A stretch of 21,198 nucleotides of DNA from a virus: IMG/VR virus record IMGVR_UViG_3300031787_000979, positions 1 through 21,198 of that record; one strand, given 5' to 3'. Shown piece by piece: positions 890-16,208 of this stretch. The translations under genes and the position numbers were made by a program. The notes under the pieces are model-generated. The model saw only the letters and a list, made by a program, of their open reading frames with translations. It did no database searches and was not told the DNA's origin. The stretch's first letter is position 1. Each line of letters opens with the position of its first letter.

Positions 890-1390
890 TTACGCAGTTA
901 AATCTCCGAAGAGAAGCCAAGTGTTTGCATCTCTTTTTAAAAGTGTTGCCATAGACCATTGAAATCTTAGTTTGTTGCCTGGAGTGTAATTTAAAACTAC
1001 ACCTTCAGCAGGAACAACGGTTGTTTGGCCTGTTCCAGATTGCAAAATATCTAAAGTTGTTCCAATTGGAAAATTTACAACTGAATCTTTTGGTATTGTA
1101 AATGTATTCGCAACCTGCATTCTAATATCTATAATCGTATCTCTTTGACTTAAGCTGTTAAGAGTATGTGGAAAGTAGACTGTATTAATTGGGGTCAAAG
1201 AGGCTACGGCTATTTTATCTTGAACACCATCTTGAAATCTTACCGTACCGCCTGAAAGATCTAGATCTCCCTTTAGCTTAATGGTGCCAGCTAAAGTTGT
1301 CTCCCCTTGAAATCCAGCACGTTTATTTACGGATAATGAATTAACCTGAAGGTCTTCGTCAGTATTGAATTTACCCTTGTTGAGAGCCAT
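890..1390 (-). CDS. Phage virion protein, 166 aa
   Basis: The start is MALNKGKFNT, with SD-like AAGGT just upstream, 9 nt after the stop of the 1005-aa virion gene. The N-terminal part (about residues 1-55) has an adaptor-like beta pattern with GGTVRFQDG. The C-terminal part (about residues 95-166) carries a pattern I recognise from many phage fibre or baseplate proteins: FPIGTTLDILQSGTGQTTVV, then the GxxLRxQWSxATLLKRxxNTWLLFGDL pattern. It has no signal peptide or membrane segment. A role as a small structural component of tail or fibre is inferred from this motif and from the operon. The alternative is a capsid decoration protein. Confidence 0.8.
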   Translation of the reverse strand: MALNKGKFNTDEDLQVNSLSVNKRAGFQGETTLAGTIKLKGDLDLSGGTVRFQDGVQDKIAVASLTPINTVYFPHTLNSLSQRDTIIDIRMQVANTFTIPKDSVVNFPIGTTLDILQSGTGQTTVVPAEGVVLNYTPGNKLRFQWSMATLLKRDANTWLLFGDLTA

Positions 1391-1399
1391 GGCTTTACC

Positions 1400-12270: not shown

Positions 12271-12326
12271 TTTTAAATAACACCTTTTCTCCGCCCTGCG
12301 GTTTATGATTTTTTAGTTGAAGTCTA

Positions 12327-14679: not shown

Positions 14680-14708
14680 TTGAGTTGTTTTGCCTTAACA
14701 GGTATAAT
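14680..14708 (+). promoter_or_regulatory. Promoter for a leaderless gene
   Basis: TTGAGT (14680-14685), a 17-nt spacer, then TATAAT (14703-14708). The ATG at 14715 is exactly 6 nt after the -10 box, where transcription should begin, so the mRNA would have no leader. Confidence 0.72.
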
Positions 14709-14714
14709 GATTAT

Positions 14715-14876
14715 ATGTCTCCACGTCATTTTTCTAAAACAATGCAAAGCCCTTACTTTCAAAGTAAGTACTACAGGGAAGAAAGTGTTGCTGGAAAAAC
14801 TGAAGCTAAAATAGAAGAGCGTATAGAAAAAATATTCTATACGCTATTATTTTGGAAAAAAAATAAACGTGGCTAA
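14715..14876 (+). CDS. Basic small protein, 53 aa, leaderless
   Basis: Start ATG at 14715 (MSPRHFSKTMQSPYFQSKYY) is chosen because the promoter TTGAGT-17-TATAAT places the transcription start on it and no SD is present. A longer open frame from 14619 overlaps the previous gene and lacks support. The protein is basic (Arg/Lys-rich), with a predicted helix EAKIEERIEKIFYTLLFW and a lysine-rich end. The helix part coincides with a perfect 10-bp inverted repeat at DNA level. It has no known family and might bind nucleic acid or membrane. Confidence 0.6.
   Translation: MSPRHFSKTMQSPYFQSKYYREESVAGKTEAKIEERIEKIFYTLLFWKKNKRG
14819..14844. repeat. Perfect 10-bp inverted repeat inside the 53-aa gene
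   Basis: GCGTATAGAA, a 6-nt loop AAAATA, and TTCTATACGC, followed by TATTATTTT. It resembles an intrinsic terminator but has an AT-rich stem and lies within codons 35-44, so it could also be an attenuator or operator. Confidence 0.6.
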
Positions 14877-14910
14877 ACAAATTAATTTAAAAAGTCTTTA
14901 GAATTAACCA

Positions 14911-14939
14911 TTGACTTTAGATAGAGATTATTTTATACT
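14911..14939 (+). promoter_or_regulatory. Promoter of the candidate small RNA
   Basis: TTGACT (14911-14916), a 17-nt spacer, then TATACT (14934-14939). Five of six matches in each box with ideal spacing. The expected start is near 14946. No ORF with a start signal follows before the terminator at 15010-15041. Confidence 0.72.
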
Positions 14940-14945
14940 TCATAT

Positions 14946-15041
14946 GTACTGGTTGTAGCATCCCACAGATTAAGCTCCCAGTATAATGTGTAGCAATACA
15001 CTAGCAATGCCCATTCGGATCCGCCTCTGAATGGGTTTTTT
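14946..15041 (+). ncRNA. Candidate novel structured small RNA, about 96 nt
   Basis: The unit has its own promoter (14911-14939) and an intrinsic terminator (15010-15041), with no coding frame. Predicted folds are three hairpins. The first is an 8-bp stem (14945-14952 with 14978-14985, one G-U pair) enclosing a 25-nt loop with a possible inner AGC/GCU stem. The second is GUGUA-GCAA-UACAC (14988-15001), a 5-bp stem capped by a GNRA tetraloop. The third is the terminator. Such a layout is typical of trans-acting bacterial small RNAs. I do not recognise a known family; it is not a tRNA. The target is unknown. It could instead be a leader for the gene at 15056 that escapes termination, but that gene has its own -10. 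Confidence 0.6.
15010..15041 (+). terminator. Intrinsic terminator
   Basis: A 7-bp stem CCCATTC / GAATGGG with a 12-nt loop is followed directly by six T residues. It ends the candidate small RNA and isolates it from the gene at 15056. Confidence 0.82.
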
Positions 15042-15049
15042 GCTATAAT
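15041..15049 (+). promoter_or_regulatory. Extended -10 for the leaderless gene at 15056
   Basis: TGC TATAAT (15041-15049), overlapping the end of the terminator T tract. The box ends exactly 6 nt before ATG 15056. No -35 is seen, as usual with the TGN extension. Confidence 0.6.
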
Positions 15050-15055
15050 ATGGAT

Positions 15056-15331
15056 ATGATAAGAACTAGAAATTATACCCTAAATGCTACAACCCCTGTT
15101 GAGCTTTCAATTGAAGATGAAATAAATGTAAAATCAACAATGATAATTTCTAACACAAGTACCAATAAGCATCTAATTATTGGAAATAGCGATATGACCC
15201 CTACAAATTTTGGTATAAGAATTGAACATGATGCACAGCCCGTCACCATTGACTTATATAAAGACGATAGACTGTATGCGCTTGGCGAAGATGGCACAGT
15301 TACCTGTGCTGTAATGATAATCGAAAGATAA
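15056..15331 (+). CDS. Small beta-rich protein, 91 aa, leaderless
   Basis: The ATG at 15056 (MIRTRNYTLNATTPVELSIE) is preferred to the one at 15050 because the TATAAT (15044-15049) places transcription start at 15056; 15050 touches the -10 box. The protein is a run of short strands (MIISNTSTNKHLIIGNSDMT, PVTIDLYKDDRLYALGED, GTVTCAVMIIER), consistent with one small beta-barrel or sandwich. Similar short proteins accompany virion genes in other phages as decoration proteins, but this is only a resemblance of size and strand pattern. It is monocistronic, between the small RNA terminator and a convergent tRNA gene. Confidence 0.78.
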   Translation: MIRTRNYTLNATTPVELSIEDEINVKSTMIISNTSTNKHLIIGNSDMTPTNFGIRIEHDAQPVTIDLYKDDRLYALGEDGTVTCAVMIIER

Positions 15332-15482: not shown

Positions 15483-15491
15483 TGGTAGAAT
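15483..15491 (+). promoter_or_regulatory. Extended -10 for the leaderless oxygenase gene
   Basis: TGG TAGAAT (15483-15491) ends exactly 6 nt before ATG 15498, so the mRNA should be leaderless. No -35 is obvious. The same nonamer is found upstream of the reductase gene. Confidence 0.55.
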
Positions 15492-15497
15492 TAGTAT

Positions 15498-16208
15498 ATG
15501 TTCTCAGATAACCCTAATATAATTAAATACGCTGACGAAGTGTATCTATACAAAAACTTTATATCCAAAGAAGATGTTGCATACATTAATGAATTGATGG
15601 AGCCTCATAGAGAAAAAGAAAATGCTTTTTCTACAGATGTTAATACCGTAGATTGGTATAACGACAAAGAAGGACCACAAATGCCAGAGCTCACAAGAAT
15701 CTGGGATCAAATATCTGAATTTTTAGCTCCAGAGTTTGTAATACACCCGCAGCAAAATCTTGCTGTAATGAAACCAGGAGATGACGGAATGTTCGTTCAT
15801 AATGATAATCCTGGTGAAGGAATGGATGATCTATTAACCCAAGAAGATAGATGGCACACTTGCTGCGTTTTATCATATGGTGTTTGTGTATACTTTGGAG
15901 AATTTGAAGGCGGAGAATTATTTTATCCACACATACAGTCAAATGGTGAACTTGCAAAAGAAGAGCATATAGATGACTACCTTGTGGTACCAGTTCAACC
16001 TGGAGACCTTGCAATTCATTGGGCTCAATCTCCTTATGAGCATGGGACAAAGCCAGTTTCATCTGGAATCAGATATGTTTATAGCAACTTTGCGCTAAGA
16101 GCAGAAAAAAATCCAGGAACTTTTCCAGCTTGGGGAACTCAAGAAGACTTAGATAGAAAAGCTAATGGAACTTGGATGCAGGTTATCTGCGATAAGCACA
16201 AGCACTAA
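15498..16208 (+). CDS. 2-oxoglutarate/Fe(II)-dependent oxygenase, prolyl-hydroxylase-like
   Basis: This 236-aa protein has the double-stranded beta-helix pattern of the prolyl 4-hydroxylase-like family. It would use iron, oxygen and 2-oxoglutarate to hydroxylate a protein or small molecule. His101 and Asp103 (MFVHNDNPG) are the first two iron ligands. CVYFGEFEGGELFYPH is the typical core strand pair. PGDLAIHWAQSPYEHGTKPVSSGIRYVYSNF carries the third ligand His182 and the 2-oxoglutarate-binding Arg192. The residues are all present, so it is likely active. No SD is seen; the -10 box 6 nt upstream implies a leaderless mRNA. Its stop overlaps the stop of the convergent degenerate relative by 2-3 nt (CTAA). 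Such oxygenases are common in aquatic phages; the substrate is unknown. Confidence 0.88.
   Translation: MFSDNPNIIKYADEVYLYKNFISKEDVAYINELMEPHREKENAFSTDVNTVDWYNDKEGPQMPELTRIWDQISEFLAPEFVIHPQQNLAVMKPGDDGMFVHNDNPGEGMDDLLTQEDRWHTCCVLSYGVCVYFGEFEGGELFYPHIQSNGELAKEEHIDDYLVVPVQPGDLAIHWAQSPYEHGTKPVSSGIRYVYSNFALRAEKNPGTFPAWGTQEDLDRKANGTWMQVICDKHKH

Follow-up and report, generated by a model that had tools for sequence, protein, structure and literature searches.

In Listeria monocytogenes, the small RNA LhrC uses C-rich loops, including that of its terminator, to pair with the Shine-Dalgarno sequence of distant mRNAs and block their translation; the terminator loop acting on lapB provides the experimental precedent for Shine-Dalgarno blocking (PMC4132741). 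The c4 RNA of phages P1 and P7 and the sar RNA of P22 pair around the ribosome-binding site of ant and block translation, c4 by means of its loops, and VpdS of phage VP882 and PreS of phage lambda are stand-alone small RNAs that act in trans on phage or host mRNAs during infection (PMC12197685). Most of the examples covered by that review were described in temperate phages whose bacterial hosts are well studied. Targets have been identified for few phage small RNAs. In Actinobacteria, the Rfam family 6C is a small RNA with C-rich hairpin loops.

How does the phage RNA described here relate to these systems? Like LhrC and the UCCC-motif group (RsaE, RNAIII, SprD, FsrA), which includes RNAs of Listeria and Staphylococcus, it offers a C-rich loop to a Shine-Dalgarno region: the loop is accessible (unpaired probability about 1.0) and complementary to 49 of 51 leaders of its predicted target, the WFNP gene. 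Unlike that group, it pairs through UCCGCC and not through a UCCC motif, it is encoded by a phage and not by a bacterial chromosome, its hairpin architecture is unrelated, and its best target is a phage gene. With c4 and sar it shares a phage origin and a predicted pairing to the ribosome-binding site of a phage mRNA. Those two RNAs, however, lie beside or antisense to their target, the antirepressor gene ant of temperate enterobacterial phages, whereas the present RNA belongs to actinophages, would pair by seven bases at its terminator loop and is separated from WFNP by about 16 kb in G022. VpdS and PreS are described as Hfq-associated RNAs from phages of Gram-negative hosts, and no relation to them in sequence or structure was found or expected. 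The 6C RNA has C-rich loops in common with it, but no Rfam match at the gathering threshold was obtained in the DNA under study or in 12 divergent loci. The RNA is thus best read as a new family that would act like the known Shine-Dalgarno-blocking small RNAs, with phage-internal targets.

The RNA unit and its family

The window, by which we mean the whole stretch of DNA analysed (21,198 nucleotides of virus record IMGVR_UViG_3300031787_000979), encodes a predicted RNA of about 96 nt. An earlier note on this DNA had placed a promoter, a phage small RNA, a GCAA loop and a terminator within 14911-15041, and all of these coordinates are correct. The features, with P1 to P3 as conserved helices, are as follows.

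14911-14939, + strand: promoter, with -35 box TTGACT at 14911-14916, a 17-nt spacer and -10 box TATACT at 14934-14939
14946-15041, + strand: small RNA, its start placed by the -10 box together with the family's conserved 5' end
14946-14984, + strand: hairpin 1, made up of P1, a U-U bulge, P2 and an apical loop
14946-14952 with 14978-14984, + strand: P1 of hairpin 1, two-sided compensatory change in 6 of 7 pairs
14953-14954, + strand: conserved U-U bulge of hairpin 1, between P1 and P2
14957-14959 with 14974-14976, + strand: P2 of hairpin 1, two-sided compensatory change in 3 of 3 pairs
within hairpin 1, + strand: apical loop, containing AUCCCAC
14988-15001, + strand: hairpin 2 (P3), GCAA tetraloop at 14993-14996, compensatory change in 5 of 5 pairs
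15010-15041, + strand: intrinsic terminator, stem 15010-15019 with 15026-15035, six-U tract 15036-15041
15020-15026, + strand: predicted contact site, hexaloop UCCGCC (15020-15025) plus closing U (15026), complement of AGGCGGA
12290-12295, - strand: possible target GGCGGA in the ribonucleotide reductase leader (start codon 12270), ambiguous as it is also a hairpin arm

In agreement with the note's statement that the unit lacks a coding frame, 14911-15041 is free of overlapping ORFs of 40 aa or more, and there is no conserved ORF. Free-energy folding, one of the checks proposed there, came out better than chance: the RNA of the window folds with -31.2 kcal/mol (z = -3.64), which 0 of 200 shuffles matched. 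All three hairpins described in the note are present, but the supposed 25-nt loop of hairpin 1 holds a second conserved short helix, P2. Its near-consensus promoter likewise exists and recurs upstream of most relatives, but the sequence match by itself is at chance level in this AT-rich window (41 found versus 40.3 expected), and decisive support comes from the comparative recurrence of the promoter-RNA-terminator unit and from the covariation of its stems.

This unit was found in well over 100 viral contigs. An exact 19-mer of hairpin 1 occurs in 45 viral contigs and two further patterns of the RNA in at least about 119 contigs each; common to the copies are the promoter, P1, the short P2, the tetraloop hairpin P3 and the terminator. 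A strict sigma-70-like promoter (TTGAC, -10 TAnnnT) precedes 113 of 130 distinct copies, compared with 0.1% in shuffles. About 8 of the other 17 combine TTGAC with a GATAAT or GATACT -10 box, and about 7 members have no promoter, most of them closely following an ORF. Members without a sigma-70-like promoter include L303, L305, L333, L336, L358 and L419, where an upstream mRNA may have the RNA as its 3' end.

In an alignment of 84 distinct sequences, which was fitted to the model and thus favours the structure, 98.4% of the base-pair cells hold a pair, and compensatory change on both sides is seen at 17 of 25 base pairs. With the structure slid by 1-3 columns, 33-46% of cells still pair, and the covariation score, 0.423 in register, does not exceed 0.084. 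Replacement of whole arms is visible besides: P1 reads GUACUGG/CCAGUAU in the window, UUAUAGG/CCUAUAA in L007 and GUAUGGG/CCCAUAC in L277. The compensatory changes that the note had named as a check are thus present. The GNRA cap it drew attention to occurs in the window as GCAA but is not essential. Relatives carry GUAA, GAAA, UUCG or other loops at this position, and some lack hairpin 2 altogether, so a GNRA loop as the functional core was rejected.

At the gathering score, Rfam 15 returned tRNAs only, both for the window and for the 12 loci with divergent members, and sub-threshold matches to 14880-15070 were chance hits to eukaryotic families (best E 4.6). The note had recognised no known family, and its proposal of a phage-encoded small RNA is supported by the lack of an Rfam match together with the compensatory changes and the lack of a conserved ORF. 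On comparative sequence grounds, we regard 14946-15041 as a stand-alone small RNA with its own promoter and terminator, and as a member of a widespread, strongly covarying family of freshwater actinophages that is absent from Rfam.

Genomic setting and relatives

Records that bear the RNA reach 115 kb, and WhiB, an actinophage marker, is encoded in 12 of 18 of them, mostly the largest. Full-length records have one copy of the RNA, and in one record a copy is found at either end. A lysozyme-like gene and a few small genes precede the RNA (it follows the lysozyme operon in 114-121 loci), which is often convergent with tRNA genes. RNA anti-CRISPRs (Racr) mimic a repeat of a host CRISPR-Cas system; if the host of the present phages belongs to Ca. 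Nanopelagicales, it would come from a group whose reported strains are without CRISPR-Cas (PMC10202952).

By protein, the nearest cultured relatives are Streptomyces phages, Stanwilliamsviridae. A homologue of the RNA in this group, which has a 72-aa neighbour gene in common, was considered and rejected: the model gave no significant match in the regions searched, and the intergenic regions look different. The syntenic place in these Streptomyces phages (L363 10990-11220 and the matching intergenic regions of L364 and L365) holds a conserved strong fold of its own, the GCCCCCUAGG hairpin, unrelated to the RNA by model score. Nucleotide searches among INPHARED phages yielded chance matches only, as did one exact 17-mer scan of cellular genomes (8 chance matches).

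Could the RNA act in cis on its neighbour, ORF 15050? The 11-nt complement between 15084-15094 and 14951-14961 is not conserved, and a chance match of 11 nt is also found at 2388, so cis pairing was discarded. A role as leader or attenuator of this ORF was rejected as well, the position not being kept: in L007 the RNA precedes the homologue of ORF 14715 and lies well upstream of that of ORF 15050, and most relatives carry other genes downstream. As a separate observation, TATAAT-like boxes stand 6-7 nt before the ATG of ORFs 14715, 15056 and 15498 (box plus ATG at 14703-14717, 15043-15058 and 15486-15500 of the window), as expected for leaderless transcripts.

The terminator hexaloop and its complement at gene starts

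Some of the search patterns had included part of the terminator loop, and relatives were therefore resampled by way of a neighbouring protein. Of at least 586 related protein stretches the best 80 loci were kept, 77 of them newly fetched. The RNA is present in 68 of these 77. In 8 of the 9 loci without it the sequence ends within about 650 bases of the marker gene, and the one remaining locus, L373, lacks it with about 1 kb of downstream sequence. The octamer A-UCCGCC-U, window 15019-15026, is kept in 67 of 67 complete gene-anchored copies; we use this count as evidence and not the 130 of 130 tally of the larger set, which had been filtered on the loop. The stem beneath varies with compensation (CGGA/UCUG, UGGA/UCCG, CCGA/UUGG, UAGA/UCUA). 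Three near-complete records without a model match, G025, G038 and G046, carry the same octamer on a wholly different terminator stem, G038 and G046 together with promoter, P1 and P2, and G025 as a terminator hairpin alone, close behind an ORF. Found through an octamer search, they show that the stem is exchangeable, not how often the loop is retained. The sole known variant is CCCGCC in G050.

The loop does not belong to phage terminators in general, an explanation ruled out by its occurrence once per contig (132 in 132, first set). L316 has a second, solitary terminator hairpin with the same loop at 1368-1394 (- strand), right after an ORF and without the remainder of the RNA. For target prediction the note had proposed the 25-nt loop of hairpin 1; the invariant site is instead the terminator hexaloop. 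Only some members have UCCCAC in their apical loop. As a second seed this motif was rejected, its complement GTGGGA not being enriched at gene starts (11 versus 18.3 expected).

The exact complement of UCCGCCU, AGGCGGA, stands 1-7 nt before the ATG in 49 of 51 distinct WFNP leaders. Its seven positions each carry 2.0 bits, compared with 1.1-1.6 for adjoining purines and 0.1-0.6 for other columns. The WFNP proteins have diverged so far that a single residue is invariant across 20 of them, and conservation of the leader motif is therefore not due to recent ancestry. A fold search with the protein gave a helical model with no significant match and no known relative. Of the two exceptions, one (L529) stems from a mis-called start; in the other (L525) the sequence is AGGUGGG, which pairs at 7 of 7 positions with the UCCGCC loop of its own phage by way of two G-U pairs. 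In G050 the variant loop faces an unchanged AGGCGGA, leaving 6 of 7 pairs, which counts against pairing. Ribosome binding accounts for part of the motif's conservation (AGG, purines), given its overlap with the Shine-Dalgarno sequence; and as loop and target barely vary, true covariation between the two is not demonstrable. The window ends short of the WFNP gene; in G022, which carries the RNA sequence of the window, the gene is downstream of the RNA on the same strand. Tandem motifs (GGCGGAAGGCGGA) occur in two WFNP leaders (L463, L471) and before an unrelated small gene in L555.

Is the motif confined to WFNP? In six phage records (783 ORFs, positions -30 to -1), GGCGGA occurs in 25 start regions versus 7 and 6 in control windows, with an average of about 4 for permutations of the hexamer, and AGGCGGA in 20 versus 1 and 1. 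The sites peak at -15 to -11. At start sites the counts are 14 for AGGCGGA, 18 for AGGAGGA, 2 for AGGGGGA and 1 for AGGUGGA. None of 115 start regions of Streptomyces phage Angela, which has no such RNA, contains GGCGGA. Of all hexamers complementary to the RNA, GGCGGA and AGGCGG show the strongest over-representation across 4073 distinct leaders, and outside the three main families a modest excess of GGCGGA is left (28 of 3891 leaders versus a permutation mean of 12.1). In the MGDRANF family, 30 of 44 leaders contain GGCGGA, at sites that partly coincide with upstream coding sequence. Of all hexamers in the 25 nt that precede gene starts of this phage clade, the one in greatest excess is CGAAAG (318 versus about 33 expected).

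Ribonucleotide reductase has GGCGGA in 112 of 125 distinct leaders. Its leader (window 12271-12310, - strand) also contains a small conserved hairpin of the CCG-CAAGG-CGG type just upstream of the Shine-Dalgarno sequence, and this hairpin is kept with other letters elsewhere (CGAC-UAC-GUCG, UCGC-AUAUG-GCGA, CUGCC-AGAG-GGCAG, UCCA-UAAGG-UGGA). GGCGGA being one of its arms, the site is not clean evidence, and ribonucleotide reductase was set aside as a clean target, the hairpin explaining the site at least in part. The hairpin is possibly a cis-regulatory element of its own.

Predicted action and alternatives

We propose that the structured RNA is transcribed independently and that its terminator hairpin would present the C-rich hexaloop in the infected cell. 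Hexaloop and first U of the 3' stem arm would then pair with AGGCGGA in the WFNP ribosome-binding site; some other phage genes may be further targets, among them the MGDRANF family and possibly ribonucleotide reductase. Such pairing would mask the Shine-Dalgarno sequence together with the spacer that leads to the start codon, and thus lower translation, so that repression would be expected and not activation or mRNA decay. The most plausible purpose would be to turn target genes down at a set stage of infection. In calculation, the hexaloop is unpaired in 115 members, target sites are moderately open (mean 0.69 unpaired), and the duplex of loop and target averages -13.0 kcal/mol versus -10.9 for the anti-Shine-Dalgarno at the same sites, with a 16S 3' end that we take to be the standard sequence. 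Seven base pairs are short for pairing without a chaperone, and this counts against pairing in trans. Weighing these points, and judging the pairing from conservation, we give a probability of about 0.7 to the reading in which this phage RNA acts in trans, pairing with ribosome-binding sites of WFNP and some other phage genes and so blocking their translation.

Might the fixed loop instead contact a protein? The RNA could be a decoy or scaffold for a phage or host protein, with hexaloop and U bulge as the contacts and the WFNP motif either coincidental or the site of another regulator (a protein that represses translation, for instance, or a DNA operator close behind the promoter). The conserved bulge between P1 and P2 and an invariant loop on a covarying stem would also suit a protein site, and the WFNP leader is short and starts near its promoter, which makes an operator possible. 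We nevertheless consider this unlikely, as it does not account for two sequences, each invariant in its own right, being exactly complementary over seven bases, and as the exceptional AGGUGGG preserves pairing to the RNA and not the letters. The note had favoured host mRNAs, and a general, C-rich, anti-Shine-Dalgarno-like loop might indeed pair mainly with these or with other host RNA, phage leaders being minor or accidental partners; C-rich loops of small RNAs in other bacteria hit many Shine-Dalgarno sequences (PMC4132741). This appears slightly less probable still, as the conserved phage WFNP leader matches the loop to the letter and the loop suits AGGCGGA and not the canonical AGGAGG; support is best for ribosome-binding sites of the phage itself as targets. 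That the element is merely a bidirectional terminator, shared with the tRNA operon, at the 3' end of the lysis-gene operon and devoid of a function in trans, would fit its place behind lysozyme and against tRNA genes, the promoterless members behind ORFs and the lone hairpin of L316, but is very improbable, given that termination needs neither an invariant loop nor a dedicated promoter nor covarying P1, P2 and P3.

For the trans-acting RNA that we favour, comparative genomics alone has, in phages of hard-to-culture freshwater actinobacteria, led to a new RNA family, its contact loop and a specific site on a target, and to a concrete prediction of seven base pairs and one gene. The covariance model of the family is a possible metagenome marker for these phages. 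Somewhat less confidently than for the pairing, though still on balance, we believe that a post-transcriptional switch is built into a large clade of actinophages: a single phage RNA, acting in trans with its fixed hexaloop, would control a target gene that is nearly always present, plus a small further regulon, by way of a ribosome-binding-site motif that does not change, while the stems of the RNA and the target protein have been almost wholly replaced. This suggests that the phage clade may time its own gene expression by a trans-acting RNA.
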